A DNA stretch of 64,000 bases from Mya arenaria (taxonomy: Eukaryota > Mollusca > Bivalvia > Myida > Myidae): NCBI RefSeq assembly GCF_026914265.1, contig NC_069135.1:26020167-26084166 (forward strand), written 5' to 3'. Shown piece by piece: positions 21,616-64,000 of this stretch; within the stretch, counting starts at the first letter, position 1, and the number at the start of each line of letters is the position of its first letter. The notes beneath the pieces were generated by a model. That model saw nothing but the letters and a program-made list of their open reading frames with translations, searched no databases and had not been told where the DNA came from. The position numbers and the translations under genes were made by a program.

Positions 21616-21621
21616 TTTATT
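21616..21621 (-). promoter_or_regulatory. Poly(A) signal of the TSP1/Ly6-like gene
   Basis: AATAAA on the minus strand about 80 bases after the stop codon of the last coding exon. Confidence 0.5.
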
Positions 21622-21701: not shown

Positions 21702-21909
21702 TTATTTCACGTCAACGACCTCATCATCGGGCGGCGTATAGAGCGTCCCAGGTTTGGGTACAACGTCAGCGTTGCAGTTCTCCGTCGTGCAACAGAACGT
21801 ACAGTGAATGTATTTGTTTACGTTGCCGTTAGGATTGTACGTCTGGCAGTCAGGGTCGTCGCTTGTTGTGTGCCACCAGTCGGAGTTACATTCACGTAGC
21901 GTTCCGCAT
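21702..21909 (-). CDS. Last coding exon: second half of Ly6/uPAR-like domain and acidic tail
   Basis: Begins at an AATCAG|A acceptor, completes an Arg codon and reads CGTLRECNSDWW, then DPDCQTYNP, YIHCTFCCTTENCN. The closing CC-x(4)-CN (here CCTTENCN) is the hallmark of Ly6/uPAR three-finger folds. After it come only about 24 residues ending PPDDEVVDVK and a TAA at 21702. No hydrophobic C-terminal segment follows, so a GPI anchor, common in this family, is not predicted and the protein should be secreted. Confidence 0.88.
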
Positions 21910-24900
21910 CTGATTACAGTAAAGCAAAACGTGAAACACTGTTGTTCCCTTGTGAAATAACAAACTTTATTAGATCATACGCGATGTGACGTATTTACCC
22001 TATGTTTTATAATACAGAAACGCATATGGCTTTTAAACTGCACGAAAGAAGGCAACATTGTATACCGACATCAACTAGTATAAGGTACCAATTTAAAACT
22101 GTTTGGTAGTGGTTCACAAGGTGAATATCCACTACTAAGTATCGTGGCGAAAATAGCTACAAGCTGCGTCATTGTTCCTAATACGTGTAACAGCAGATAG
22201 ATCCCAGAATATTGTTATGGGTTGAGTTTTCCTCAATATGTAGAATAGTAGATTTGAATAGCGCTTGTCAATTATGGTACCCGACCCACAATTTCTCTTC
22301 AAAGAATCAGACGATTTCGTAAGCGTCGGTTCATTTCGTCATATCTCTGAAACATATATTCCCCAAGCGTTATATTTCAGTGTGTGTATACCACGTGATA
22401 AATTGCGTCATAAATGATACATCGGAAGGCAATATTTTTATTTAAAAAATACTTTAAACAAAGTTAACTTTACTATTTCTTCACCATTTTAAATGAAACA
22501 TAGCCCAGTCTTCGCCGCTTACGGAGACCCGCCTTCGGTCTGTTATCAGAGTTTGATTGAGAGTTTAGTTTCTTAAAACACTTCGACAAACCTTTTCCCA
22601 ATACGGCCGTCGACGGAGCAATGTCAAAACATTATTTTGAAAACAGGTTTTTCGAAATGTTTGATGAAACTAATGACCTTATCTAATTTCCGTAATATAA
22701 CAAACGCGGGGTGGCATAGACTGCCTTTTGTTTTATTTAAAATGGTTTTGTAAATGAAAAGTTATCTTTGATTTTAGTCTTCATTTTAAGCAAAATGTTG
22801 CCTTCCGACGTAGCATTTATGACGTAATTCATCACGTGGTATACACACACTTTATTTTACCCTTTCGTGAGTCGGATATTTTATTTTTGGTTATTCCAAT
22901 TTTGAAATTATATCTTTTCTTGCAATAATAATTTTTCACCATACCTTCGACTGATGGTCTTGGAGCCGTCAGCGGTATTGGTTACCTCGTTAATACAGTA
23001 TGGTTCCGGGCACGAAGCGACGTGATGCAGTTGGAAACACAGTGGGGGAACGTTGTTGCACACGGTACAACTGATACCTTAATAAAACAATTTAAACTAC
23101 AGGAAAATGCAGCGGCCAAATTTCAAGATATTTGAAAGACAAATATATTGGCAAGTCATCGAGCTAATCGTAATAATGTTAAACTTTTACTAATATAAAA
23201 AAATAAATGACCGAACAAAGAAGTAAATGCAAATATGTTTTGTATTAAATTTTATATATTTTGTAATTATGCAAGACCAAAAAAGCCTTCTTGTTATATT
23301 GTTTTTGTAGTATATGTTTACACATCGACACAAGGCAATAAACACATACGTATTACATAAACAGCATTGACATATTGATTTTTAAAAAAGTAACCGCTTT
23401 AGAATGGTCAGTGAATATCGAAAATACATTTCAGGTCTAAGGATGGATCATTTTTGGTTTTCGGGTTTAAATAATCCTAAATAGAAGCTTATTTGTTATG
23501 TTAATGCCCATGACTCGTCAATCTGTAAACGTACGAATACAATGTGGCTAAACAAAAATGATAAGCTGCTTATTACAATATTTATTTATTTTCTCACGAC
23601 ATGGTGCAACATTAATAGAAAACATAAACAGACTGTCATTGTCAAAACACATGAAACGAACTCATTCTTGCATTAGTTTAAACATATTTTACAACGATTG
23701 TGAAGAAAGCTATGATAACTTATACTAAGTCACTCTCGTTGGCATGATGTTGGGCGATCATGTGGTATTGTGTTGTGGGGGAAACCAGAGTACCCGGAGA
23801 AAACCCACTTGTCCGGCTTGGTGACCACAATCCAAACTCACACGCGTCCCGGAATCGAACCCGGGTCGCCTTGGTGAGAAGCGAGTGCGCTAACCACTGC
23901 GCTAACCGGACAACCTTTGCGTTCTTGCATCAATTTACAATTTAGGAAAGTACATGAAAGTAACCTGCAGGCGTTGTTGTTGCTACGGTTGTCGTAGATG
24001 TCTTTGTTGTCGCTGCCACTATTGTCGTATCATTCAAACCGCCAGTGACATTTGAGACCGCTATTGAAGCACCTGATGCAGATGTTGTTGCTGTAGAGCC
24101 AGGTCCAGCCGAAGTAGCTGTGTCAGTAGTAATAGGTGCATTTGCAGTTGTTGGTGCTATGACCAATAACATTCATTGGGCGGACACGAATCAAAAGGCC
24201 GAAAGTACGTTAGGTTTTATGAATAATGAAGGTTCTTGGATCATTTACCTATAAATGAACACTTGGACGGAGACATATCCTATAATTGGCATGTGTAAAC
24301 AAGTACTATATTTTAACGCTAGTTGGCGTAGTATGTCAAACATAAACAAATTTCAACGTGTGCTTTAGCTAGAATACCGCGTTATCCGCTGCTAGGGACA
24401 TTGGAGGTGTTGCAAGTTCCATAACTCAAACTGAAACTGCTATTTTTGAAATATAGATGCGGTTTGTGATCGATCTCCAATGCAGAATAATTTCAAGGTC
24501 AGATTTTAGACGTATATGTTTCGCAGAACTATCGTTTTTTATCTCATGCTATGCCTTGTTGTCGATATTTTCTTTATAGTATATGTGAAATATAATAATT
24601 TGACTCCGCATTATCAGCGGCAGGTTAATATGAACAATTAAATTGAAAACAATGATGGCTTAATTGGTAATATTCCAGCAAGTCATGCGCTCTTCTCTAA
24701 TCCTGTTTAAATCATAAAATATTTATTTGAATAAAGCAGCTCATTTTCCATTTAAATCATCGAAGGAAAACATTGATATAATCTCTTGGTATCATAATAA
24801 AGTATTCCCAGAACGTTAGTCAATTACTGGGTTTTTTGACCGGAAATTACGTCATAAGCATATCACAATGTGACAGACATAAACAGACTGTCATTGTCAA

Positions 24901-27900
24901 AACAAGAATTAAAATTTCTGAAGAATACAAACTCATTCTTGCATTATTTTAAACATTATATATTTTACAGCGATTGTGAAGAAAGCTATGATAGCATATA
25001 CTAAGTCACTCTTGTTGGCATGATGTTGCGCGATAATGTGGTCTTGTGTTGTGGGGGAAACCAGAGTACACGGAGAAAACCAGCTTGTCCGGCTTGGTGA
25101 CCACAATCCAAACTCACACGCGTCCCGGAATCGAACCCGGGTCGCCTTGGTGAGAAGCGAGTGCGCTAACCACTGCGCTAACCGGACAGCCTTTGCGTTC
25201 TTGCATTAATTTACAATTCAGGAAAGTACATGAAAGTAACCTGCAGGCGTTGTTGTTGTTGCTACGGTTGTCGTAGATGTCTTTGTTGTCGCTGCCACTA
25301 TTGTCGTATCATTCAAACCGCCAGTGACAGATGAGACCGCTGTTGAAGCTACGGTCGAAGCAGCAGAGTCAGTACCAGACGAGGGTGAGGGCAAGGAAGA
25401 AGTGGGTGCACCTGTTGCAGATGTTGTTGCTGTAGAACCAGGTCCAGCCGAAGTAGCTGTGTCAGTAGTAATAGGTGCATTTGTAGTTGTTGGCGCTATG
25501 ATCAATAACATTCAAAGAGCGGACTTGAATCAAAAGGCCGAAAGTACGTTAAAGTTTGATGAATAATGAAGGTTCTTGGATCATTTACCGATAAAAAAAA
25601 CACTTGGACGGAGACATATCCTATAATTGGCATGTTTAAACAAGTACTATATTTTAACGCTAGTTGGCGTATTATGTCAAACATTAACAAATTTCAACGT
25701 GTTCTTTGGCTAGAATACCGCGTTAGCCGCTGTTAGGGGCGTAGAAGGTATTGCATGTTCCGTAACTCAAACTAAAACTGCTATTTTTGAAATATGGATG
25801 TGGTTTGTGATGGATCTCCAATGCAGAGTATATAGTACACGAGGTAAGATTTTAGACGTTTATGTTTCGCAGAACAATCTTCTATTTTATCTCATGCTAT
25901 ACCTTGTTTCCGATATTTTCTGTATTGTATATGTGAAATATAATAATTTAACTCCGCATTATCAGAGGCATGTTAATGTGAACAATTTAATTAAAAACAA
26001 TGATGCCTTGATTAGTAATATTCCAGCAAGTCATGCGCTCTTTTCTAATCCTGTTTAAATCATAAAATATTTATTTGAATAAAGCCATATTCCATTTAAA
26101 TCATCGGAGGAAAACATTGATCTATTCTCTTGATTTCATAATAAAGTATTCCCAGAACGTAAGTCAATTACTGTTTTTGACCGGAAATCACATCAAAATT
26201 TATAAGAAAGAAAATGTTGTTTAAAGTATAGTATTTATTTTGTTATTCTTACCGGATATCATTTTTAATTTTGATTTACTTATTAACGAAATTAAATCGA
26301 TAAAATATATATACATTGCTTTAAATTATTCCGGGTACTACATTTCTACAATGCATGTATCGCGGGAAGTTTCATTGCTTTGTCAGTGTGTGGTATTCGG
26401 CTCATCATAAGCGCGAAACAGGAAGGTCTTTTTTTAATATTTCTGTTATACCGAAAAAAGCATGTGATCAAAAGAATCTGCCTCTATTCATCATATAATA
26501 CACAATTTAATTAAATCCTTCCGGAAAACATCTTAGTAAGCTCGCTAAAGACTGGCCTACTAAGAAATTTCCTCATCTAGTTGAATATACACAATTTAAT
26601 TAAAATCTTTCGGAAAACATCTTAGTAAGCTCGCTAAAGACTGGCCTACTAAGAAATTTTGAATACAATTGTTAATAATATGACGACTCGTGACAAATCA
26701 TATATATATATGTATTAGTTATCTTTCATATGAAAGATAACTTGCTTATAGTTTGTCACGTCCGCACACCCGGCAAAACGTTGACTGACAAACGCCGACT
26801 CCACCCAAAAATTGATTGACAAGCCAGGGAAATTATCTAGTGGTGCGGCATCGGTTCTTTGATGTCACGTGATGTCTGGTGCGGTACATGCAGACCTAAG
26901 AATTAAATTGTCGCAATCTCGTGTTGGCTTTTGTTCCGCCTACTTTCTAGAAAAGTCACGTAGGCCAAATATCACTGTATTTTCTCTGTATCGGAGTTCA
27001 TATCAGGGACGAATTGCAGAATATGGGAAATATTTTTCAAATTTAAAACGAAATGCAGCAATCTCATTGGCTTTCAAAGTAGGACAAACTGTAAATATAT
27101 ATAACATAACATAACTGGATATGTAGTGTATGTTATGCTAGTGGACCAGTCAACGTTTATTGCACCTACCACACATTTATGGCCTTAAGGTTATACAGAA
27201 GAAATATATTCACCCCCTCCCCTTCAACCCCCGTCTTATTCACGAAGCACTTCCTGCTGGAGTAAGCTAAATAAAAAGCTTTTCTTACTTGTCGTACAAT
27301 CAATAGGAAGACAAGTGTCGTCAGTTTGTCTGTATACACCAATACAGTGATTGCCTCCACAAGCTTGACGGGGATTGTCGCAGTTCCGAAATCTGGACCG
27401 AGTTCCATTAGAGCAATCGCCTTGGCATGCCGACCACGGATACCATAATGCCCAGTTTCCGTCCACTATTGAAATTATTTTACTACAGTAACACACTTAC
27501 ACGTAAAATGCAACAACATGCTTAGGGCTGTTACATTGCATTATGAAGCATATACTCTAGATAGTCCCTTTCCTTTGGGCAACTTAGAGTACACAATTGG
27601 AAAAACAATAATTAAAGAAATATAATTGTTTAAAGTTTGTAAACTCCATACTCGGCCATATAAACCGTAACTGCCGAAATGTCAATAAAATAAACATTTT
27701 ATTCATTGGATAATGTATGACATATAGATTTCTCGAAAAAGTTAAACCGAACTTGCAGTTGACATGTGATTGCGTACAATGCCGAATACTTATAAGTGTT
27801 TGTTACCTGGACAACACTTGTCTGGGCATTCTGTTACGTCAGTTTCATTTCCGACGCAGTCCTCTCCTCCAAAGTCGGGCTGAGGATTGTCACATGATCG

Positions 27901-45900: not shown

Positions 45901-48900
45901 AACTGGGGATGGACTGTCACAAGTTCGTTTCCTGTTCTTCTCATCATCGTTACAGTCACATGCCGACCAGGACTCCCATGTTCCCCACCCACCATCAACT
46001 GAATTAAGAAAATACATTTGATAAAATTAAGATCCTGTATTGGTGTTAGCCTTTCTTATTTGACCGATGACAAGTAAAACACTTCGGTATTAATGATACT
46101 TTTAAATATTCAATTCCCGGACAGACTTAATAACTATAGTTTATTGTTCCCAGTTGTCATGTAACTGTCAACTGTACGCTAAGTTATTTACCAACTCATC
46201 AACAGCTGCAGGACTAAATAACTATAGTTTATTGTTTACAGTTGGCATTTAACTGTCAGCAGTGCGCTTAGTTATTTACCAACACATAAACAGGTGCAGG
46301 ACTTAGTTCTGCACATAGGCGTCCCTGCTGACCATAACAAGAAAACGCAGATTGAGTTCTTCGCCTGCTTGGAGCAACATCTTGTTTTTAATTTGATGAG
46401 ATTTGACAATTTAAGTGCAAAAACTTTTGAGACAATTGTGCGGTCGGACTCTTTATTGATCTTAAACGATTCATTATGCCCATAAATATTGTGACCAAGT
46501 TTGGTAAAGATTCAGTGAAATATACCACATTCATAGAGCAGATATGAAATTGCCAAGACGACTATATAAAAATACTACACATTTGAAACGTTTAACTAGT
46601 TTGATTGCAATTAAAATTTTACCAAATCGTTTGTCAGACACTTATGTGCCTTCTCTTGCAAAGAAATAAATCACTGTCTACTTTTTATTTTCGATTAAAA
46701 TAGGTAGTGTGGATTTTCAGCAGGTCCCTCGAAGTGACAGCTGGACACTTTTTAACAGTTTAGCTGGTATTTCTCTTATTCACGGTGTCTTTTACAACCA
46801 CCATTTGTTGGTGTTGGTTACAAAATGCACGATACCGTTGGAATTCATATTAGTTATATATTCAGTGTGTGTTTACCACGTGATCAATTGCGTCATAAAT
46901 GCTACGTCGGAAGGCAATATTTTGATTTGAAAAAAAATACTTTAAACAAAGATAACTTCACTATTTCTTCACCATTTTAAATGAAACAAAGCGCAGCCTA
47001 CGCAGCTAACAGAGCCCTACCTTCGGTCTTTTAGCAGAGTTTGATTGCGAGTTTAGTTTCTTTAAACACTTTGACAAACCTTTTCACAATACGGCCGTCT
47101 GACGGAGCACTGTCAAAACATGATTTTGGAAACAGGTTTGTCGAAGTGTTTGATGAAACTAACAAAACCTTATAAAACTCCGGCAATAAAACGAAGGCAG
47201 GGCTCTTTAAGCGACATAGACTGCCTATTGTTTCATTTAAAATTATGTAGTAAAGAAAAGTTATCTTTAATTAATGTTCATTTTAAGCAAAATGTTGTCT
47301 TCCGACGTAGCAAATAGGACGTTAATTATCACGTGGTATAAACACATTGATATTGTTCATTGCTTCAAACAGGCCAATCAGAGCTAAGAATTTCAAGCAG
47401 TCGAAACAGTCGAATACATTCTTGGGTCATATCGACACACTTCATGTGGTCCTTATTTACTTACATCAGTTTCAACGATAAACTGTAAATCATTCATAGC
47501 CAATGCATTTTCAAATAAAAGGAACGTACGGTTGCTGACGCGCTCTTGAATATATTCGTATAATTTATAATAGATGAATAATAACTTATGCATATTCATC
47601 ACAAACTGTATACACGTACCTGGACATGCAACATTACGACAGCTCTCAGTAAGGACGGGGTTTCCAATTGTACAGTTCTCTCCACCAAAGTCCGGTTCGG
47701 GGTCAGAGCAGGTACGATAACGTGACCGCTGGCCCTCTCCGCACGTCACTGAACATTCCGTCCAATTGCCCCACATAGACCAATGGCCATCCACTAGAAT
47801 GGTTTAACAGACGCCGCGTTTATTTTGCAAAAAACATCAGTCGATGTGCGGATATTTCATAATTGTACCCATTCACTTTGACACTCGCTGAAGTGCAGAT
47901 ATTCAATAATTGAATCACGCGATTAAGACACACGTCAAAGTGCGGATATTCAATAATTGAACCACGCGACTAAGACACACGTCGAACTGCGGATATTCCA
48001 TACTTGTACCACGCGACTAAGACACAAGTCGAAGTGGGGATATTTCAAAATGTGTACCACGAGACTAAGACACTCGTCAAAGAGCGGATATTTCATATTT
48101 GTACCACGCCACTGACACTCGCCGAGGTGCGGATATTCAATAATTGTAACACGCCACTATAACCCTCACCGAGGTGCGAATATTAAATAAGTGTACCACG
48201 CGAATATGACACTCATCGGAGCGTGGATATTCAATAATTGTACCGAGCGACTAAGACAATTGTCGAAGTGCGGATAATCCATAATTGTACGACGCGACTA
48301 AGACACTTGTCGAAGTGCGGATATTCCATAATTGTACCACGCAACTATGAAACTCGTCGATGCGCGGATATTCGATAATTGTACCACGCGACTATGAAAC
48401 TCGTCGATGTGCGGATATTCGATAATTGTACCACGCGACTATGAAACTCGTCGATGTGCGGATATTCGATAATTGTACCACGCGACTATGAAACTCTTCG
48501 GTGTGCGGATATTCTATAATTGTACCACGCAACTATGAAACTCTTCGATGTGCGGATATTCGATAATTGTTCCACGCGACTATGAAACTCGTCGATGTGC
48601 GGATATTCGATAATTGTACCACGCGACTATGAAACTCGTCGATGTGCGGATATTCCATAATTGTACCACGCAACTATGAAACTCTTCGATGTGCGGATAT
48701 TCGATAATTGTTCCACGCGACTATGAAACTCGTCGATGTGCGGATATTCGATAATTGTACCACGCGAGTATGAAACTCGTCAATGTGCGGATATTCTATA
48801 ATTCTACCACGCGACTATGAAACCCGGCGATGTGCGGATATTTTATAATTGTACCAGGCAACTATGAAATTCGTCGATATGCGGATATTCGATAATTGTA

Positions 48901-51900
48901 CCACGCGACTATGAAACTCGTCAATGTGCGGATATTCTATAATTCTACCACGCGACTATGAAACTCGGCGATGTGCGGATATTTTATAATTGTACCAGGC
49001 AACTATGAAATTCGTCGATATGCGGATATTCGATAATTGTACCACGCGACTATGAAACTCGTCGATGTGCGGATATTCGATAATTGTACCACGCGACTAT
49101 GAAACTCTTCGGTGTGCGGATATTCTATAATTGTACCACGCGAGTATGAAACTCGTCAATGTGCGGATATTCTATAATTCTACCACGCGACTATGAAACG
49201 CGGCGATGTGCGGATATTTTATAATTGTACCAGGCAACTATGAAATTCGTCGATATGCGGATATTCTATAATTGTACCACGCGACTATGAAACTCGTCGA
49301 AGTCGCGATATTCCATAATGGTACCACGCAACTATTACACTCTCCGAGGTGCGAATATTTAATAATTGTTCCACACGACTTAGACACACGTTGTAGAGCG
49401 GATATTCCGTAAGTGTACCGAGCGACTAACACAATTGTCGAAGTGCGGATATTCCGTAATTGTACGCGACTAAGACACTTGTCGATGTGCGAATATTCTA
49501 TTATTGTACCACGCGACTATGACATTCATCGAAGTGCGGATAATTCTTAAGTGTACCATGCAACTATGACATTCGTCAATGTGCGGATATTTTATAATTG
49601 TACCACGCGACTAAGGCACTCGCCGAGGTGCGGATATTCCATAATTATACCGAGCGGCTAAGACACTCGTCGAAGTGTGGATATTTCATTCTTTATAATA
49701 ACCACTTTGTGAAAACCTGGATTAAAATATTAAATGCGCCAGTCAAAAGCAAAAAAAAAAAATGAGTGAGGAGGATAGCCTCCTTATACATCGAATAGTC
49801 GAGCTAAAATACTTACCCGGGCAAGGATCAACGCCACAGAACTTCGTGTCCGTAGGGCTTCCAAGACTTGTGCAGTCAAGCCCTCCTGCTGACGGCATAG
49901 GATTGTCGCATCGACGGTTACGTATCTGGTACCCTCCACCCGAGCCTCCATCACACGACACAGTACAGTGTCCCCATTCGTTCCACACTGAGTAACCGCC
50001 ATCAACTGTACACAATTGAAATGCTTAAATACTACATGATGTTATTAAACAATACCTTTTTAAGATTGCTTATTAAAGGTATCGGAAGTACAAATGAGCT
50101 TGCTTATTAAAGGTATCGGAAGTACAAATGAGCTTGCTTATTAAAGGTATCGGAAGTACAAATGAGCTTGCCATTTCATAATAATCCAAACTCATAATTA
50201 AAAGTATAAACTATGGTATGATTTTGTTCTTTATTTCAACTATAATCGGATATTAAGAAATCGGAACCACACATATGTGAAATTTAGATGTCAGGTGGCC
50301 ACATATTATTTGTTATGATTTGAAAGGGTTTTTGTGATGAAAAAAAAAATGCGAAACTGCTGAAACTTCTCTCTGTCATTTTGTTTTTCATTTCAGTAAC
50401 AATCTACCAAATACCTCCAAATAATACTAAAATTGTACGGTGTCGCAAAAAAATCAATATTAAACATTAAAGTTATTGGGAACTATCAGAAAACTTGATA
50501 CTTTGTGGTCACTTTTCTAACGTGACCTTGTTTACAATTTAGCATAGCCAAAAAAGCTGTTCGGTAATTGCAGTGTCTTCTTTCAAAATAAACCAGGCAT
50601 TCAAACTTCACAAACGTGTATATTGAATGCCTTACGCTGGCAATATTTATAACGTACATCATAAACTCTGTTAAGCCTTTAAACCAAATGTTAACATAAT
50701 ACTTAAACCAACTGTGTTAACATAGTAGTTTATAAGCAAGGCCAAACAGTTTATTTTACGGGCTTTTCTAGTGTGTTTTTTAGGGGGGGGGGGGGGGGGG
50801 GCGAAGCGATCGCAATATAGAAAATAAATTTTCATTTGTAAACTTAAGAGTGGGTTTTTAACACATTGTCCTTTAACTCCTTTAACTCATTTGAACACAA
50901 TCTTTAACCTAATCTCAATTGGAAAATGTATCAATGTTTACTATTTTCTCAATAGTATTGAGTTAGCAAGAAACATGTAAATCCACGACAATCCAAATTT
51001 CTATGATAATCATAACAGTATTTTAGAAAAAATAACCCTGGTGTTAAATGTTTGGCCAAAACATATAATGTTTTTTTACAGATGCAGCATCAAATAAGTT
51101 TTGAGTCGATATAGTGAATATCATTGTCAAAGCAATAACATGCGCAAACATAAACGAACATTATTTTCATCATTCTATTATGGGCAGAGAGTTGTTTAAT
51201 TATTCGCAGATAATGTTGTAACAAAAATAATGTTGTAAAAAAAATCAAAGTAGCCATACCTTCTAAGTGCTTTCATTCGATCTGTCTGAACAATATCTTT
51301 TTGTGACCCGATATTTGTCCCAAATTATTGTTCATCATTGCAGACAGAACAACAAAGTCATTTGTCTTGTACTTTGTTTTGATAAAACTTTACTTTCATA
51401 CTGAATAACACGCAAGGAGTTCTAACGGCATTATTTTTCAATATTGCGCTCCGACTGGAGAAGCGCGACCAATGATATACGACGTTACAAATATCAGTAT
51501 TTCTCTCACACAAACGATTTGTTCGGCTTCCACCCTTAACTGCATGGTGTATGGTGAACTTGGTGTACAACCCATAGCTTTACAAATTAAATCGAGAGTT
51601 TTATGTTATTGGAGCAAAATTGTGAACGAAAAAGATTGTAAAATATCTAAGTTGTTATGTTATAAATACGGTTCTAAAACTACATAAAAGTAATGTTATT
51701 GTTTCTCCATGGTTATCCTTCGTTAGCAATACCTTAAACGAACTTGTCTGATTATGTTAGCAGTCAATCAGTCATTAGCCCTGATAATTTTAAGTCAATC
51801 GTTAAAAATAGACTGTATGACCAATTCTTGCAAAACTGGACTAGTACTGTTTATAGCTCTTCCAAATGCCTTTTATATACAATGTTTAAGCAAAATCATT

Positions 51901-54900: not shown

Positions 54901-57900
54901 TCTGTCCAGTTCGACCAGCCGCCGTCAACTGTGAAAGGAAAATACATTTAGCAACGCCAGAGCTTATGTAACTGTAAATTTAAGACGCATTTATAGACGA
55001 CTGGCCTTCAGTAATTGTTAACTAGGAAACGCCTTATACAACGCCAGACATTTGGATCCTGTAAACTGTAACTGTAGATTTAAAATTCGTTTAACAACAC
55101 CTCTGTTACAGTTAATTAAAACACATTATACAACGCCAGACCTTGGGGACCTGTAGATTTAAGATGTATTTAGAACGTCAAAATTTGGCTGACTGAAAAT
55201 AAGACTAATTTAACAACACCAGAACTTCTGGAAATGTAAATTAAAAACAAAATATAAAACGGCGAACCTTAGGTAACTGTTCATTTGAAACAATAAAACA
55301 ACACCGCACATTCACACCATTAATGACAGAACAATTTCAGACTTTAGACAAAGATAACGGAAACGTTTAAGAAGCCGGATGAGGCAAATGCATTTTTGTT
55401 TATAAAAAACAACAACAACACATCAAACAAAATACCAGAGACCGGGCAACTGTAAAAGGAACGTTGATTTACGTAAGCCCATCAGCAGCAGTGAATAATA
55501 CATTGCATACTTCCGTAATATTGCAAAAACATGAGATACATTAAATAATGTAAGATATTCGGCAACTGTGTTACTTTGGTAAAATGGTAAGCCTTATCTA
55601 CCTTTAAAAGATTGGTAAAACAAAGTCAGATATTATCAAATTTTGTAATACATAGTATGCTGTTATTAATCTAAACCATATCTTGACAACCTTTGAGTGG
55701 TGTACTGCATGAAATTGTGGCAGTTCTGGGCACTTTCAAGCCCTTTTTTTATGATATTTATCTTACCCAAAAAGTTTTGCGTAACTAGAGAACTAGATTA
55801 TTATTCCGAAAATAAAGTGGTTAACACGAAACGATTCGCGAACGTTCTCCGGTTATTATTCGGCAGTAATAGGCCACCATCACATATACTAAGAATAATG
55901 TTAAGATATGTATATTAACTTACCAGGACAAAGCACATAAGCACATTTGAACTTTTCTTCAGATAACCCTGAACAGTCTTCCCCGCCATTTTTTGGAGCT
56001 GGATTGGTACACGTACGAGATTGTGTTTTGTAAGCATCTCCACACGTGGCAGAGCATTCTGACGGGACCACCCACGCAGACCAACTGCCGTTCACTAGTC
56101 CAATCAAAGTTTACGTTTGAAATAAATTTTGCCAGAATTTATATTATAAAAAAAAAAACAATATGCGTACACATTCATTGGCAATACTCGAAATTAAATA
56201 AGTTATCGTATTTCAAAAATGTATATCAAAAGTTAAATAGCACTTATCAATTAAAGCATTTAACACTGTTGCAAACACAAAAACAAATCAATAATGTACA
56301 GATATTCAAATTATTAACATGGAAGCAATTCAAACGTAAATAAGCTAAAAGAAGTGAAGTAAAGGAAATTATATTAAAAATCTGTGGAATATTTACCCGG
56401 ACAATTGTCATAATTTCCTCTAAAACAGCTTTCATGTTGGAGTTTCTGTCCTTCACAATCGGTGCCGTTGTTTTGAGGTGCAGGCTTGTCACATGCTCTC
56501 TGCCTGTAGCGGTTGTTGTTACAGTTACATACTCCCCAGCTTTGCCAGTCCGACCATCTTCCCTCGACTTGTAATAATACAATGAAAACTAAAAGGACAA
56601 GCACATTACATACGTTTTTAATTTCTTTGTTTACCCCGTTAAGAGGCATCAGGTTCAACAACAAGAAACTCGCAACGTCCCAACACAACAAAGAGTTACT
56701 TATACATTACAAATCATTTATAAGTATAACTTGGTAGCGCCTTGGGATGGTAAGCTAAACAATAGTTCACTGGTAGGTTAAATTAGATTGCCAGAACATA
56801 GTAAACTATAGAATAAAGTAAGCATTTGTTCCTTCGTAATTAACATCAGCCACTATCAGCTTTGCGGTCTGGCCGATTATTGACCACATATTGCCAACCT
56901 TTCCACCATCTGCTTTTGGAAAAAAATATTGGCAACTAGCGAAATGAAGCAATATAAACTTTCAGAATATAGACCGTTCCGATGGAACAGTAGTAGAGTA
57001 TTTGTGTGTCTCAATAAATTATGAGTTTATGAATTATTTTAAGTTTGGGGCTTCGATACTCAATAAAACATACTTAATAAAAAACATGCTAGTTTCCAAC
57101 ATAAAAAAAATGATTCGTATTCGATAAATTTGAATATTAAAATACAAAATGTTAGTCTTGCTCTTGTCTGGATTTTACTATTTTAATTAAAATTATGCAA
57201 TATTTAGAACGCATGATAGAAATATATATATATATTGGCCATAAAAAAATCTGATATTAATAACACACATATGACACGGAGCAATAGAAGCCATAAACAC
57301 CCTGAAATGAGGAAATTATAATAAAAAACAAAATATGTAATAACAAATAATATCATATACATTGCAATATTAATACATAACACAAAGTAGCAGGAGGGCA
57401 AGTAAACGTTTAAAACGACCATTCTCCGCGGCTTTAATTTAATAATGAAATTGAGCGTCAAATAAAAGCTACCAAGCGTAGAATTATCGGAAAGAGATAA
57501 ACGGTACGAACATTTTCTCCGACCCTTATTATTAAGATTTTTGGCGCAAAAAAATGCAAATTATATAAGATGAGCTTACTGTCACAAGTATCATTGAAGC
57601 ATACCCCTCTCTCGTATTCTTTTCCATGACATGTGCCGTTGACATAACAATTCCGCAGTCTGTGTTAGGAAATATAAAACGGAAGTACATCTATATAGAC
57701 CGCACAAAATGGCAATATAGTTCTATTCAACTTTCCGCCTAAAATGTTTTTTGCATATACCATTTTATATTGTACAGTTATAATACAGTGAAAACTTCGT
57801 TGACATGTCCTGTTGGTAAAAACATCAAATATAAACCATGTTGAGAGGCACAAATGACTTTCTAACACCACAAACGGATTACACACGAAACTCTTTATGT

Positions 57901-60389
57901 CAAACAATAAGCTATTTAATAGTCATAGTTAGTGTTTGAAATCGGTCTCCATTTGCTATCGATAATCGAATCGAATCGGACCAAGCATTTCGATTTACTA
58001 TCGGACAATGATCGGAAGTTCATAATATAAGTAAGGAATACATTCTTTATACATAGTATCATTATGATCATTTAAATGGTTAAACCTGGAATCAGTACGT
58101 CTGATGTCATAGTCATGCTTTTGGCAACAGTAAGTAAATTTCCATAACCTTTTTCTGACTTTAATAACATAACAAAAAAATATAACAACAAAACGCATAC
58201 TTAATAATTGCAAATCAATTGCAAAATGATGCACACCGCATCAAGTAAGTTATCTCAGCATTTTATCCATGTAAAAGCATATCTATATCGGTGAACCAGC
58301 TTAACATTCAATAACATGTTTTATTGAACATTTCATTAGAATATATTAATTTCATACAACTTTCACAAAAGAGTAAATTAGTTAATTACAAACGATAACA
58401 AAACAAGTTTCAAAACCAGAATGCATCGAGCTGGGATGCCCGGTATTTGCAGGTAAGACTGGACCCACTACACCATAAAGACAGGTTATTGAATGTTTTA
58501 TTAAATATATAAACAGAACAATTTGTAATTCTGGAGTTGTTCATGTTTTTAAGCAAACATGTTAACATTCACCGCAGTTGTGTAAGAGAGTGATCACCTT
58601 TGGTAAAATGACCTCAACGAGAATTTTTCGGAAAGAAAAAAATGACATTTACTCGTCTTTTGCCACAAAACAAAAAAAATCGTAGTTACCGGAAGTAACA
58701 TTAGCGACATCGATTTTGGACAACCACTATCGATTGTCGCCTAAAAAGCGTGGTCAGCGACGATTTATCGATTGTGCTTGTCATTGTTCATAGCTATGTT
58801 GCTGTAGGGAAGGACTTAACTTATGCTTGGACTTACAATCATGACTTTGAAAAAGCATAAAAACAATACAACGTACTAAAGTAATGAAATTGAAGATAAC
58901 ATATGAGTAACAATATGTATGGCATTTTGGATATGATATTATATTGTGATTTGTGAATGTGTTTTTTTACCAAACAAGCACAGTTCTTACCTAAAAATTG
59001 TTCCAACTTTACAATTTTCATCTCCATAGCACTTACTCCAGTCCCCCCATTCCTCCCAGACTGAAGATACAATATATTACAAGGGAAAAAAATAAAATGT
59101 GCATGATACGAAACTTACCAAATACGATATTCAGACGCTCGCTGACTAAACGTTGTATATCTCTTTTATATAAGCTATCAATGTAACTCGGATCATAGGC
59201 TAAAAGAGAGGGATACTCGAATAAGATCACCTGTTACGACCTTTCTATTGAAGGTTTCTTTTGTATTAGTATTTCCACAATGCTTTTTGTTGAAATATTT
59301 GAGTTTGTGATTACAGGGAACATAAATGAATTAATAAAAGTTTATTGTTTTATAACAAATTGTCTAAGCCGACGTACAAAAAACACAAGCCGGCGTGAAA
59401 ACCACAGTCTTCGTCACCGTCGATCAAAACTGTGCGTGAGGGGCGTCCCATTTGTGACCAGGTAGCAAAGGATGTTCAAAAAGTTTTATTTTTAGAAAAA
59501 AGTTAATAACAATGAATCGCCGAAAATAATCATAAAAACATAACAAAAATAGTTGATTTTAGTGTTAGATCGTATTTTATTTTACTCTCGATCATAGAAA
59601 AACTTGGCTACTCGTGAATATATGTTTACTCTATGGCACTCGTGAAATAAAATACAATCTTACACTGAAATCAACAAATATCCTCTATATCTTACTTACA
59701 AAGTATCTTTATTCCGCTGGTATATATATAAAATTGATTGATTTTGGTGGTCTAAACTCTAGCTTATTAAAACATCTCAACTTTTTAGATCTCAACATAT
59801 TTGGGCAATAGGAAATACGCTATATATAGGAAATGCATAAGCTTCCATAGAATTCAATAGGAAAGGTGCCTACAATGATAAAATATCAATAACGATATTT
59901 TTCTAAAATAATATGACTGCGCTTTTCTTCAAACTGCTCCGATGTTGTTGTTTTTTACAAAAAGAAATGTTTATCAGATAAAGAAAAACATCTAGTACAT
60001 GTATATGAATGTAATCTTTTTTTTTATTTTGGAGTAACTATGTCATCAAATGAACAGAAAACAAGATACACCAAAAATCATTTTGTTTACTATAGAAACT
60101 GTATGCCTTTTTTCTTATCATGTTGGAGTTGATTTTCTGTATATATCTTGAAATATATTGCAATTTGAAAAGGGATTAATAAGAAAAGTTGTTCAGTGTA
60201 AAACTTCAGACAGACAATTTTACTGAAACATAAACTGGCGCATGATGCGATGATATTTGTTACGAAATTACTAACAACAAATTGTCTCTATTCAAAATCT
60301 TACCTTCGAAACATTTTTTCAAATCAAATCCAGATCCTTTGCAATTTTCTCCTCCGTTCGATGGCGTTGGATTATTGCACAGACGATAT
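21702..60389 (-). CDS. Large multi-TSP1, Ser/Thr-linker, Ly6-like secreted protein gene (5' incomplete)
   Basis: One minus-strand gene is read from twenty-two exons: 60304-60389, 58991-59060, 57580-57659, fifteen whole-module TSP1 exons from 56397-56567 to 27289-27465, two Ser/Thr exons (25241-25495, 23965-24156) and two Ly6-like exons (22945-23077, 21702-21909). All junctions are GT/AG and phases agree throughout (phase 1 between modules). The last TSP1 exon ends with A|, which pairs with CA of either linker exon to give Thr. Either linker ends G|, which pairs with GT to give Gly before ISCTVC. The product would carry at least sixteen complete TSP1 modules (W-x-x-W and six or more Cys each), a mucin-like stretch and a C-terminal three-finger domain. 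TSP1 modules bind glycans and matrix and are C-mannosylated and O-fucosylated in other animals. The signal peptide and first exons lie beyond 64000. The alternative is two adjacent genes, but no separate start is seen before the linker. Confidence 0.8.
22378..22852. mobile_element. Palindromic MITE family CAGTGTGTG, copy 3
   Basis: Lies in the intron between the two Ly6-like exons. The left end CAGTGTGTGTATACCACGTG and the right end cacgtggtatacacacact are inverted, and the inner sequence matches copies 1 and 4. The final bases of the right end have changed, so the target duplication is unclear. Confidence 0.75.
22945..23077 (-). CDS. First half of the Ly6/uPAR-like three-finger domain
   Basis: 133 bp, phase 1 to phase 2. 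Reads GISCTVCNN, PPLCFQ, ASCPEPYCINEV, ISR(R). C-x-x-C near the start, then spaced Cys, matches the N-terminal fingers of Ly6/uPAR domains and joins the next exon in the usual place. The acceptor is TTATTAAG|GT and the donor AAG|GTATGG. Confidence 0.87.
23750..23915 (-). mobile_element. tRNA-derived SINE in duplication copy A
   Basis: On the minus strand the head reads GTCCGGTTAGCGCAGTGGTT (A box), with a B box GGGTTCGATTCC about 30 bases on. A Val-CAC-like anticodon arm can be drawn. The tail reads tctccgggtactctggtttc, then ccccacaac, resembling a conserved central domain found in many animal SINEs. The acceptor stem does not close, so it is not a working tRNA gene. Confidence 0.8.
23965..24156 (-). 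CDS. Ser/Thr/Ala-rich linker exon, copy A (64 codons)
   Basis: 192 bp, phase 1-1. Reads APTTANAPITTDTATSAGPG, later SNVTGGLNDTTIVAATTK and TTTVATTTPAG. Dense in Thr and Ser with no Cys and no hydrophobic segment, so probably an O-glycosylated spacer between the TSP1 array and the Ly6-like domain. The acceptor is GGTCATAG and the donor GCAG|GTTACT is weak. It lacks about 20 codons that are present in copy B. Confidence 0.75.
25040..25195 (-). mobile_element. tRNA-derived SINE in duplication copy B
   Basis: Same element as at 23750-23915 with few differences. It reached this place by the segmental duplication rather than by a new insertion. Confidence 0.8.
25241..25495 (-). CDS. Ser/Thr/Ala-rich linker exon, copy B (85 codons)
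   Basis: 255 bp, phase 1-1. Shares both ends with copy A and adds a middle stretch, PTSSLPSPSSGTDSAASTVA. The reading frame is open throughout, as in copy A, and the flanking splice sites are the same type (GATCATAG acceptor, weak GTTACT donor). Both exons can be included, skipped or exchanged without changing frame. Confidence 0.75.
26191..27288 (-). other. Intron between last TSP1 exon and linker exons
   Basis: Contains an 89-bp-period two-copy repeat (26501-26572 and 26590-26660). A perfect 26-bp palindrome AGTTATCTTTCATATG... sits at 26717-26742, flanked by CGTGACAAA (26689) and TTTGTCACG (26752). An open frame at 26869-27114 (+) shows no family motif. Confidence 0.65.
27289..27465 (-). 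CDS. TSP1 exon (most C-terminal module)
   Basis: 177 bp, phase 1-1. Starts DGNWALWYPWSACQGDC and continues RSRFRNCDNPRQACGGNHC. Seven Cys instead of six, and CQGDC in place of C-x-x-S/T-C, so no O-fucose site. The donor ACAA|GTAAGA leads to the linker exon. Confidence 0.88.
27807..27977 (-). CDS. TSP1 exon
   Basis: 171 bp, phase 1-1. Starts NGIWSDWAAWGACDVTCG, then TRSRSCDNPQPDFGGEDC, ending CPDKCCPG. W-x-x-W-x-x-W and CDVTC (O-fucose consensus) are both present. An extra Cys lies near the end. Confidence 0.9.
28203..28373 (-). CDS. TSP1 exon
   Basis: 171 bp, phase 1-1. Starts DGGMSDWNEWSTCSHSCG, then RSRTCTNPTPLYGGANC, ending LVNCP. The first Trp of the ladder is replaced by Met; CSHSC keeps the O-fucose consensus. 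Confidence 0.9.
28823..28993 (-). CDS. TSP1 exon with an unusual donor
   Basis: 171 bp, phase 1-1. Starts DGAWNSWMEWGECSTTCE, then RSRTCDQPAPEYGGKPC, ending FEKECPG. The donor is CAG|GTTCGT, weaker than the GTA type used by nearly all other TSP1 exons, so this module may be skipped in some transcripts. Confidence 0.88.
29240..29410 (-). CDS. TSP1 exon
   Basis: 171 bp, phase 1-1. Starts NGGWSEWSGYTPCDTKCG, then FRGCDNPPPQNNGIYC, ending KPCPG. The third Trp is Tyr, and CDTKC lacks the O-fucose acceptor. Confidence 0.9.
29411..30641 (-). other. Intron, nothing recognised
   Basis: AT-rich. The open frame at 29712-29921 (+) shows no family motif and no exon features. Confidence 0.5.
30642..30765 (-). 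pseudogene. Decayed duplicate of a TSP1 exon
   Basis: Aligns with the 3' two thirds of the neighbouring exon 30814-30987. Shared blocks are taccatcgcrgttat.ccg at the donor end, gtc(g/a)gcaccgttgta in the middle and gcrgttgcgrgattt.gta further on. On the minus strand it still reads YKSRNCICYNGADFVGSDS and NRDG, but the Trp-rich start and two Cys are gone. It looks like a tandem exon copy that has drifted. Confidence 0.7.
30814..30987 (-). CDS. TSP1 exon
   Basis: 174 bp, phase 1-1. Starts DGQWSGWGVWSECSVTC, then KSRNRTCDNPPAQYNGADC, ending RDNCDG. Full Trp ladder and CSVTC. This exon is the parent of the relic at 30642-30765. Confidence 0.9.
31361..31765. mobile_element. Inverted-terminal element, about 405 bp, GC-rich
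   Basis: The left end aaagggtctgtcaaacc and the right end ggttgacaggccctt are inverted with small differences. The interior is unusually GC-rich with repeated acatcg motifs (catcgtcaagacatcgtcag at about 31486). An open frame at 31386-31748 is a by-product of this composition. It lies in the intron between 30814 and 33047. Confidence 0.55.
31766..32876 (-). other. Intron with a tRNA-like sequence
   Basis: AT-rich and without exons. The only recognisable item is the tRNA-like block at 32487-32562, listed separately. Confidence 0.5.
32487..32562 (+). mobile_element. tRNA-like sequence, SINE head or decayed tRNA
   Basis: Begins gccggaatagcttaatagat with an A-box-like tagcttaatagattgagc. A B box gattcgaatccc follows at 32547. 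The middle and the acceptor stem do not fold properly, so a working tRNA is unlikely. Confidence 0.5.
32877..33047 (-). CDS. TSP1 exon
   Basis: 171 bp, phase 1-1. Starts NGVWGEWGHWAECDVTC, then RNRSCDNPLPAFGGQEC, ending DPCPS. Full Trp ladder and CDVTC. Confidence 0.9.
33131..33652. repeat. 23-bp minisatellite in an intron
   Basis: About 22 copies of a unit like actggtgtttcagacaaggc plus aaa. Variants alternate between cagacaaggc and caggcaaggt, suggesting a 46-bp higher-order unit in the middle of the array. Confidence 0.9.
33653..34022 (-). other. Intron, nothing recognised
   Basis: AT-rich tail of the intron that holds the 23-bp array. Confidence 0.4.
34023..34193 (-). CDS. TSP1 exon
   Basis: 171 bp, phase 1-1. 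Starts DGNWAEWERWGACDKPC, then TRNRTCSNPEPAHGGQNC, ending TQHCPG. Full Trp ladder; CDKPC lacks an O-fucose acceptor. Confidence 0.9.
34194..34854 (-). other. Intron, nothing recognised
   Basis: AT-rich sequence before the 25-bp array; no features seen. Confidence 0.4.
34855..38631. repeat. 25-bp minisatellite, about 3.8 kb
   Basis: About 150 copies of a 25-bp unit (aagataacactagacacaac plus actgc). The first 600 bases are organised as dimers of about 50 bp with alternating gataacattagacactacgc and gattacacaagacaccacac halves. The rest is mainly monomeric. Three units make 75 bp, so the minus strand shows long 25-residue repeat frames (LCYLAALCLVLSCSVV). These are not genes. Confidence 0.95.
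38852..39022 (-). CDS. TSP1 exon
   Basis: 171 bp, phase 1-1. Starts QGGWTNWFSWMGCSVTCG, then LRLCENPKPENGGRYC, ending DQFCTG. Good Trp ladder and CSVTCG. A nearby second AG (cacag) could give a start six bases later, but the CATTCAG acceptor keeps the usual exon length and phase. Confidence 0.88.
40394..40688. mobile_element. Palindromic MITE with TTAA target, copy 2
   Basis: Left TTAAAGCTGCACTCTCACAG and right ctgtgagagtgcagctttcaa are inverted. Internal ctgtcagcagtct matches copy 1 at 6553-6920. The right TTAA has drifted to TCAA. It lies inside the 6.3-kb inverted-repeat element, so it inserted after that element. Confidence 0.75.
42010..43865. repeat. 84-bp tandem array
   Basis: About 22 copies of a unit containing taccacatgttggcaccat, aaagccatttagagccaaac, aaacacataaataactctag and ttcagactgtctcagtg. 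Some units lack three bases (gactactcagtg). Units decay at both edges, and looser relatives (gtgccaaacaaa, agtgcc) extend back to about 41500. Confidence 0.9.
45825..45998 (-). CDS. TSP1 exon
   Basis: 174 bp, phase 1-1. Starts DGGWGTWESWSACDC and continues KNRKRTCDSPSPVGAGKQC, ending LAQCPS. The CDCNDD start replaces C-x-x-T-C-G, as in the exon at 56397-56567, marking a sub-type without the O-fucose site. Confidence 0.88.
46121..46300. repeat. Two-copy 88-bp tandem duplication in an intron
   Basis: taactatagtttattgttyc is seen at about 46131 and 46219, and gttatttaccaac in both copies. Moderately diverged. Confidence 0.7.
46863..47349. mobile_element. Palindromic MITE family CAGTGTGTG, copy 4 (intact ends)
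   Basis: Left CAGTGTGTGTTTACCACGTG and right cacgtggtataaacacattg, flanked by ATATT at 46858-46862 and 47350-47354: a perfect 5-bp target duplication. The interior matches the other copies (acttygacaaacc, aacaggtttgtcgaagtgtt). Confidence 0.8.
47620..47793 (-). CDS. TSP1 exon
   Basis: 174 bp, phase 1-1. Starts DGHWSMWGNWTECSVTCG, then RSRYRTCSDPEPDFGGENC, ending NVACPG. A textbook module with full Trp ladder and CSVTCG. Confidence 0.92.
47870..49695. repeat. 47-bp minisatellite with higher-order repeats
   Basis: About 39 copies of a 47-bp unit (aattgtaccacgcgactatg, aaactcgtcgatgtgcggat, attcgat). The edges are more diverged than the middle. A block of several units containing taccaggcaactatgaaatt and cgtcaatgtgcgg recurs near 48760, 48900 and 49130, so whole blocks have been copied. 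Confidence 0.93.
49817..50005 (-). CDS. TSP1 exon (longest module)
   Basis: 189 bp, phase 1-1. Starts DGGYSVWNEWGHCTVSCD, followed by a Gly-rich loop GGSGGGYQ, then RNRRCDNPMPSAGGLDC, ending VDPCPG. The first Trp is Tyr. The Gly-rich insertion accounts for the extra length. Confidence 0.9.
50068..50169. repeat. Three perfect 34-bp tandem copies
   Basis: gcttattaaaggtatcggaa and the next 14 bases are repeated three times without a mismatch, so the array is recent. Confidence 0.92.
50170..51690 (-). other. Intron, nothing recognised except a G run
   Basis: AT-rich with a 19-base G run at 50783-50801. No exon, RNA or repeat end recognised. Confidence 0.45.
51690..52466 (+). mobile_element. LINE retrotransposon, 5'-truncated 3' end
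   Basis: Frames on the plus strand give the tail of a LINE ORF2. First comes FKSIVKNRLYDQFLQNW, then SSSKCLLYTMFKQN and CFEDYLDL. After a stretch in another frame, KNVIGDEFHYLLECNHFSYV matches the C-x-x-C...GDE-HYL--C motif downstream of reverse transcriptase in several LINE clades. The reading frame is broken in a few places. A T-rich 3' UTR ends aataaaacttgaacttgg. The reverse transcriptase core is absent, as usual for a 5'-truncated copy. Clade not assigned. Confidence 0.7.
52660..53440 (+). mobile_element. Helentron-like element with five about 140-bp tandem repeats
   Basis: Units start agtaacagtg(a)cctt at about 52698, 52838, 52983, 53099 and 53243. Each has gaccctagggaccccaaacg, caatcccatgaaag, ataaactcttcctttatacc, aagtttggtcaagatatgtc and agttattcagtttcaac. 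The block ends in ccgcccggccacccgcccga and a hairpin (taaccaggttt near 53416, aaacctagtta near 53435). Tandem core plus 3' hairpin fits non-autonomous Helentrons of bivalves. Confidence 0.55.
53441..54751 (-). other. Intron, nothing recognised
   Basis: AT-rich; short chance frames only. Confidence 0.45.
54752..54928 (-). CDS. TSP1 exon
   Basis: 177 bp, phase 1-1. Starts DGGWSNWTEWTQCSVTCE, then QSRNRTCDNPIPMFGGAKC, ending SPDKCA. Full Trp ladder, CSVTC present. Donor GCAA|GTAGGA. Confidence 0.91.
54929..55923 (-). other. Intron with a diverged short tandem repeat
   Basis: From about 54950 to 55310, motifs acaacgccaga, aactgta(a)atttaa and cattata recur every 45-60 bases: an old, decayed minisatellite. 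Nothing else recognised. Confidence 0.5.
55924..56094 (-). CDS. TSP1 exon
   Basis: 171 bp, phase 1-1. Starts NGSWSAWVVPSECSATCG, then TQSRTCTNPAPKNGGEDC, ending YVLCPG. The third Trp is missing (VVPS); CSATCG keeps the O-fucose consensus. Confidence 0.9.
56397..56567 (-). CDS. TSP1 exon
   Basis: 171 bp, phase 1-1. Starts EGRWSDWQSWGVCNC and continues RYRQRACDKPAPQNNGTDC, ending YDNCPG. Same CNC sub-type as the exon at 45825-45998. Confidence 0.9.
56568..57579 (-). other. Intron with a possible exon relic
   Basis: At 56862-56909 on the minus strand, an AAAAGCAG acceptor-like site precedes atggtggaaaggttggcaat, resembling the Trp-rich start of a TSP1 exon. The rest of a module is absent. Otherwise AT-rich and empty. 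Confidence 0.3.
57580..57659 (-). CDS. Second half of a split TSP1 module
   Basis: 80 bp, phase 2 to phase 1. Reads LRNCYVNGTCHGKEYERGVC, then FNDTCDS. It completes the module begun at 58991-59060. Shorter than the usual second half and without the D-N-P-x-P loop, so a diverged module. Confidence 0.8.
57660..58990 (-). other. Intron inside the split TSP1 module
   Basis: AT-rich. Has clusters of ATCGATAATCG-like motifs near 57955 and 58720 that may be element ends. A weak minus-strand tRNA-like start (tggtgtagtgggtccagtc, about 58475) may be an old SINE. No exon seen. Confidence 0.4.
58991..59060 (-). CDS. First half of a split TSP1 module
   Basis: 70 bp, phase 1 to phase 2. Reads WEEWGDWSKCYGDENC, then KVGTIFR. 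The Trp ladder is clear. The CYGDENC segment replaces C-S-V-T-C-G. Donor TTAG|GTAAGA and acceptor ATCTTCAG. Confidence 0.82.
59061..60303 (-). other. Intron between the two most upstream modules
   Basis: Holds the palindromic element at 59550-59678. Otherwise AT-rich without exons. Confidence 0.45.
59550..59678. mobile_element. Short palindromic MITE
   Basis: The left arm agttgattttagtgttagat (from 59551), cgtattttattttac and the right arm gtgaaataaaatacaatctt, acactgaaatcaac are inverted with a few mismatches. The interior is about 50 bases. No coding capacity. Confidence 0.6.
60304..60389 (-). CDS. Second half of a TSP1 module (first half off-window)
   Basis: 86 bp, phase 2 to phase 1. 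Reads YRLCNNPTPSNGGENCKGSG, then FDLKKCFEG, a standard TSP1 second half. Its first half is not found between 60390 and 60890 and must lie beyond the 60-bp array, right of the window. The intron position is the same as in the 58991/57659 pair. Confidence 0.85.
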
Positions 60390-63800: not shown

Positions 63801-64000
63801 GTGAGGTTGTGTATATAACGACGGTGCCAATGTGTCCACTGTTTACGTCCTTATTACAAAGTGAGGTTGTGTATATAACGACGGTACCAATGTGTCCACT
63901 GTTTACGTCCTTATTACAAAGTGAGGTTGTGTAGATAACAAAGGTGCCAATGTGTCCACTGTTTACGTCCTTATAACAACGTGAGGTTGTGTATATAACG
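60893..64000. repeat. 60-bp minisatellite, at least 3.1 kb, runs off the window
   Basis: About 52 units of exactly 60 bp with almost no indels. Core: gttgacgttcttattacaac, gtgaggttgtgtatataacg, acggtaccaatgtgtccact. Variants are gttgacgttc or gtttacgtcc, acaaa or acaac, and accaatgtg or gccgatgag. The gttgacgttc type dominates to about 62280 and the gtttacgtcc type after it. Since 60 is a multiple of three, 20-residue repeat frames stay open for long stretches on both strands. Units with ttataac bring stops, and there are no splice or start features, so it is not coding. It sits in an intron of the TSP1 gene. Confidence 0.95.

Follow-up and report, generated by a model that had tools for sequence, protein, structure and literature searches.

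A predicted TSP1-array gene of Mya arenaria that probably ends in a Ly6/uPAR-like domain behind Thr/Ser-rich linker exons

We analyzed a 64,000-nucleotide stretch of the Mya arenaria genome (hereafter the window; C14:26020167-26084166, locus A) and searched the 1.216-Gb assembly, which comprises 18 contigs, for related sequences. A preliminary description had proposed that the window contains an array of TSP1 modules, a Thr/Ser-rich linker and a Ly6-like domain arranged as one unit. Following the minus strand from 60389 to 21702, we found 22 exons with GT-AG borders that join into a single open frame of 1,208 residues with its sole stop at the end, which bears out the proposed arrangement; the remaining two frames of the joined sequence contain 93 and 24 stops. 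The joined frame encodes 16 full TSP1 modules and one half module, two Thr/Ser-rich exons, and a Ly6/uPAR-like (LU) domain with 12 cysteines on two exons. The claim that phases and split codons agree at every junction was also correct, with the codon A|CA shared between TSP1 and linker exon 2 and G|GT, as read from the sequence, between linker and LU. When the TSP1 module is joined to linker exon 1, the split codon is A|CG, likewise threonine.

To describe the array, a TSP1 hidden Markov model (HMM) was trained on 13 modules of the window; it found 15 modules that each occupy one exon, with E values from 1.4e-12 to 4.7e-26. From upstream to downstream on the minus strand, these lie at 56567-56397, 56094-55924, 54928-54752, 50005-49817, 47793-47620, 45998-45825, 39022-38852, 34193-34023, 33047-32877, 30987-30814, 29410-29240, 28993-28823, 28373-28203, 27977-27807, and 27465-27289, as placed by HMM matches and splice sites. 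All 15 have a phase-1 AG and a phase-1 GT as borders, found with a script that sought the nearest such sites and thus presupposed phase 1. Splice sites were scored as percentiles of the GT or AG sites of the region, each site being left out of its own scoring. By this measure the donors of the one-exon modules fall between the 96th and 100th percentile; the acceptors range from the 11th to the 100th and so prove little by themselves. A further module is split over two minus-strand exons, the first half at 58991-59060 (HMM E 0.0037) and the second at 57580-57659 (HMM match, open frame); joined, the halves matched Pfam TSP_1 with E 0.00036 and 21.1 bits, just under the cut-off of 21.6, and the three one-exon modules tested out of the 15 all scored above the curated cut-off. 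With 15 one-exon modules and one split module, the earlier count of at least sixteen complete TSP1 modules holds. TSP1 modules are secreted and often glycosylated, and the joined protein contains 24 matches to the N-glycosylation sequon, 42 to W-x-x-[WC], and 8 to C-x(2,3)-[ST]-C-x2-G. The introns of the TSP1 gene hold large minisatellites at 34836-38620, 41975-43689, 47840-49685, and 60897-64000, with units of about 25/50, 84, 47, and 60 bases, the last of which runs beyond the window to about 71.4 kb (coordinates past 64000 extend the window numbering upstream).

The second half of another split module lies at 60304-60389 on the minus strand (HMM E 9e-10), with an open frame and a phase-2 acceptor. 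The preliminary outline had ended at 60389, but the gene does not start there: on the same strand beyond the window we found a TSP1 half module starting at 72472, which is likely the missing first half, a weak module at 74443-74303 (E 0.002), and another at 77343-77191 (E 1.4e-6). Of this most upstream module, three further genomic copies reached E ≤1e-8 among the 150 candidates scored out of 303; one of these copies sits 48 kb before the LU domain of a paralogous locus, B. Two stretches further upstream, 78258-77862 (71% identity) and 80236-80106 (82%), are conserved between loci A and B; neither matched a Pfam family, and both may be N-terminal exons. Elsewhere in the genome, at C3:67.513-67.521 Mb, TSP1 matches fall within open frames of 1,633 and 907 residues, so that the arrays on C3 are intronless, whereas the window gene has one exon per module.

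Two linker exons follow the array on the minus strand. Linker exon 1 (25241-25495; splice-site percentiles 99.0 for the donor and 87.1 for the acceptor) encodes 85 residues, including 28 Thr, 14 Ser, and 7 Pro, and linker exon 2 (23965-24156; donor 99.0, acceptor 70.6) encodes 64 residues, including 21 Thr, 7 Ser, and 4 Pro. Both of the one or two Thr/Ser-rich segments suspected earlier are therefore present, and exon 2 is a duplicate of exon 1. Serine or threonine accounts for 42 of 85 residues in the first and 28 of 64 in the second, a composition that would suit O-glycosylation of a mucin-like linker. At 25495-23622, the linker exon is part of a duplicated unit of about 1.3 kb that includes downstream intron sequence; locus B (C14:27.84 Mb) has three copies of this unit, two of them with an identical linker. 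Genome-wide, a search at E up to 1 returned 14 pieces that correspond to nine linker copies at six loci, all on C14. In eight copies (the ninth, at locus F, was left out), the frame is kept and length differences are multiples of three. Pairwise dN/dS values of 0.56 to 3.7, based on few changes, are near neutral, so the coding use of the linker rests on the kept frame. At all six loci a copy of the last TSP1 module of the window precedes the linker, and since the linker follows the same module wherever it was found, we consider it very likely that TSP1 array and linker belong to one gene.

The LU domain is encoded by exon 1 (22945-23077, minus strand; phase 1 at its start and phase 2 at its end; acceptor at the 91.7 and donor at the 97.6 percentile) and exon 2 (21702-21909, minus strand; acceptor at the 98.4 percentile), which carries the motif CTFCCTTENCN and ends with a TAA stop at 21704-21702. 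A consensus match to the polyadenylation signal AATAAA lies about 80 bases 3' of the stop (21616-21621, minus strand), and a second AATAAA at 21706 overlaps the stop codon itself. Across nine aligned LU sequences, 11 of the 12 cysteine columns are invariant and the twelfth is kept in eight. The window domain shows the ten-cysteine pattern ending in CC-x4-CN, although the choice of ten canonical cysteines among its twelve is putative, and it consists of the two-exon set after a phase-1 intron by which LU domains have been defined (PMC6600238). No Pfam family matched the window LU. Among the nine aligned sequences, four gave sub-threshold matches to UPAR_LY6_2 (best E 0.0021), and QVR reached E 0.0029 at best in the relatives (19 bits against a cut-off of 27.3; 0.12 in a second run). 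When the whole genome was searched with the Lypd6 model PF16975, four sub-threshold matches came up on C3 and none elsewhere, so that the window LU was not found; sequence searches of PDB chains returned unrelated chains but no LU chain up to E 10. The assignment as a putative LU domain is thus one made from cysteine pattern and sub-threshold Pfam matches of relatives. The three-finger fold named earlier is putative in the same way; the cysteine pattern and the two-exon set agree with LU domains, whereas the Pfam LU cut-off was not reached. Read by eye, the protein ends in ...TPPDDEVVDVK and has no hydrophobic C-terminal GPI signal. Next to the LU exons, on the plus strand at 19831-20277, an open frame resembles the C-terminal part of a C1q domain, which looks like the adjoining C1q-domain gene reported in the preliminary description.

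To judge whether the LU exons belong with the TSP1-linker exons, we compared the window with its paralogous loci. Locus B (C14:27.83-27.84 Mb) was compared over 35-21 kb of the window and is collinear with it across the last eight TSP1 modules, the linkers, and the LU; the two loci encode the same LU protein, their LU exons differing by 5 silent and 0 replacement changes. At locus C (C14:1.01-1.02 Mb), a TSP1-like exon and a Thr-rich exon that encodes 14 residues precede the LU exons, and the phases agree throughout. Its LU exon 1 is 92.5% identical to that of the window and exon 2 with the 3' part 78%, and the rest of the 13 kb compared gave no alignment at E 1e-5. The TSP1-like exon was recognized by the window-trained HMM (E 0.0005 in 20 kb) and had no Pfam match; it and the Thr-rich exon both begin and end in phase 1, and their donors lie at the 99.7 and 99.5 percentile, their acceptors at a middling 68.3 and 52.5. 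These two exons, lying further upstream, spoke against the reading of locus C as an orphan LU beside a satellite. The satellite itself, of about 9 kb (C14:1012178-1021292), contains very long open stretches in at least two frames. At C14:1005356, about 5 kb ahead of the TSP1-like exon, lies a sequence that resembles a signal-peptide first exon with a good phase-1 donor and may be the start of the locus C gene. At locus D (C14:59.55 Mb), which has no linker, a diverged TSP1 array, with 8 modules in the 10 kb read, is followed about 3 kb further on by LU exons that agree with it in strand and phase.

LU exons also occur by themselves: at four of the eight LU loci whose upstream DNA was read (2.5 to 10 kb), namely C17:26.7, C17:40.9, C8:53.3, and C13:12.9 Mb, no TSP1 lies nearby. 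Conversely, four of the six linker loci, E to H (C14 24.00, 24.06, 24.11, and 24.17 Mb), carry the window's last TSP1 module (79-95% identity) and the linker, and an exon search at E up to 1 found no LU there. Because no LU was found at these four loci, linker and LU could be parts of neighboring genes: the first would have TSP1 modules and stop after the linker, and the second would be a small LU gene with an overlooked signal exon of its own. Such a small gene would have the usual form of a signal exon and two phase-1-flanked exons (PMC6600238), and the linker frame does hit a stop 7 codons beyond its splice donor (...GYFHVLS*). Against this, no candidate for a signal-coding first exon with a good donor was found in the 887 bases between linker exon 2 and LU, nor at locus B; good splice sites and a continuing frame lead from linker to LU; and TSP1 precedes LU at loci C and D as well. 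For these reasons we consider two neighboring genes unlikely, although not negligibly so. The agreement of phases weighs little alone in this choice, since LU exon pairs, which in known members encode a protein-binding domain, are usually flanked by phase-1 introns anyway (PMC6600238).

The missing signal exon is likewise weak evidence. Between the last TSP1 module and LU, neither A nor B has a candidate with a good phase-1 donor; under looser settings, a single candidate with a poor donor appeared at 24936, between the linkers. However, the background of 30 candidates in 228 kb of strand (0.13/kb) leads one to expect only about 0.8 in the 6.3 kb scanned, and elsewhere the same scan gave none at locus D and at C8 and one poor candidate at C13. 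At locus C, no candidate lies between the TSP1-like exon and LU, the single one being that at 1005356 further upstream. Thr-rich exons stand directly before the LU exons in three matches on C17 (26.727, 40.942, and 40.963 Mb), and from these, linker and LU look like a recurring pair. In C17:40933001-40968000, several LU-like exons alternate with Thr-rich exons in a single orientation, as if they formed a multi-LU mucin-linked protein.

At each of the four loci E to H, the linker is followed after 7.0-7.5 kb by MAM exons; joined, those of one copy matched the Pfam family with E 4.2e-38. The interval from linker to MAM contains a TSP1 exon, which is broken at E and G but intact at F and H, and at E further TSP1 exons lie past MAM. 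The same last TSP1 and linker are thus followed by LU at two of six loci (A and B) and have MAM downstream at the other four, and the first MAM exon begins in phase 1 at the one MAM locus checked, as the LU pair does. Alternative last exons, with LU as one of several ends of TSP1-linker forms, would account for this pattern, but the differing ends sit at different loci and none were seen sharing one, and we regard this explanation as improbable. The similarity of the window to E, G, and H, which were read in part, ends at 23622, inside the intron preceding LU and 545 bases before the LU exon. A tentative interpretation, possible but doubtful as it stands, is that a chromosome-wide family has exchangeable C-terminal heads on a shared TSP1-mucin stem, LU being the head at two loci and MAM plus TSP1 at the other four; heads would then have been exchanged through recombination within the intron that follows the linker.

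The comparison with locus B also bears on whether the gene is active. If changes fell evenly over the LU, of which about 72 of 333 sites are silent, the chance of 5 silent and 0 replacement changes would be ~0.0005, and between A and C the dN/dS of the LU is 0.16. Eight TSP1 modules compared between A and B gave a joint dN/dS of 0.39, ranging singly from 0.09 to 1.37. The highest value belongs to the last module (17.5 replacement and 3.5 silent changes; window 27465-27289 against C14:27836449-27836622), which has evolved faster than the neighboring modules and is 95% identical to the 24.00 Mb copy as compared with 74% to that of the collinear locus B. This fast last module, the nearly neutral linker, and the broken TSP1 exons at the related loci E and G might point to a decaying, inactive chimera left by segmental duplication. 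However, all 22 exons are open, and the constraint on the LU and on the eight modules taken jointly makes decay a very remote prospect. The pattern of selection fits a gene product with a structural rod (TSP1), a stalk under low constraint (linker), and a conserved head (LU).

What we observed directly in support of a single gene is that the exons are intact, their splice sites are compatible, the frame stays open, the LU is under selection, and paralogues show the same order; the exons would be spliced together. We are fairly confident that linker and LU are joined within one gene, and one long gene for a secreted mosaic protein, TSP1 - Thr/Ser linker - LU, is probably the correct reading of the whole. 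The earlier proposal of one secreted protein therefore remains the best reading, backed by the frame, by the order at locus B, weakly by locus C, and by the lack of a hydrophobic tail, but set against four loci at which no LU was found. Its product would start with an N-terminal stretch and continue through about 19 TSP1 modules and a Thr/Ser-rich stalk to the LU at its C-terminus. Judging from known families, the TSP1 rod would be glycosylated and bind cell-surface or matrix polymers, the stalk would be O-glycosylated and keep the head at a distance, and the LU head would bind a protein partner. The long glycosylated stem may be retained in matrix or mucus and present the LU on its flexible stalk. 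The gene may have originated when a phase-1-flanked LU exon pair was joined by intron recombination to a TSP1-linker gene, one member of a family that has expanded on C14.

The thrombospondin family proper is defined by a C-terminal thrombospondin domain; no such domain ends the window gene, whose C-terminus is the LU if the join is real. With the LU superfamily, in which UPAR_LY6_2/Lypd6 and QVR are the nearest Pfam families, the window domain shares the phase-1 5' flank, the two exons, and the C-x2-CC-x4-CN end (PMC6600238). Known members mostly have a single LU or are LU-only multidomain proteins, some of them GPI-anchored, whereas the window LU ends a TSP1 mosaic that lacks an anchor-like tail and in which no signal exon was found. 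GPIHBP1 and SP-10 also have a low-complexity segment on its own exon before the LU exons, but that of GPIHBP1 is acidic whereas the window's is Thr/Ser-rich, and the relevant passages of PMC6600238 describe no TSP1 array for either protein. Loci E to H (C14 24.00-24.18 Mb) share the last TSP1 and linker with the window and differ in having MAM downstream, with no LU found. Anthozoan TSR proteins likewise combine repeated TSP1 with other extracellular domains in diverse, lineage-specific repertoires; their partners include astacin, VWA, trypsin, ShK, and immunoglobulin domains, and the term 'Ly6' does not occur in the main text of that study (PMC5446238). Within the open-licence literature, judged mostly by listing, we found no protein that joins TSP1 and LU, and a term search of PMC11595613 gave no match. 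Within that literature, the parts are known and the arrangement is new.

TSR domains favor the colonization of an anemone by symbionts (PMC5446238), and thrombospondins are among the immune-related gene families that have changed in size in giant clams (PMC11700175). By analogy, these reports suggest that the Mya protein may take part in the recognition of symbionts or microbes. The recognition or mucosal role put forward in the preliminary description is conjectural. The interest of the TSP1-LU join stems from the published view that LU domains are rare in mosaic proteins and that LU probably does not qualify as a bona fide mobile module (PMC6600238). If confirmed, a TSP1-mucin-LU protein with several copies in the genome would add another clear counter-example and reveal the interval in which recombination took place; exchangeable heads, if true, would mean that LU moves as a true module in this lineage, contrary to that view. 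Confirmation would also provide a defined secreted bivalve molecule with a separable stem and head.
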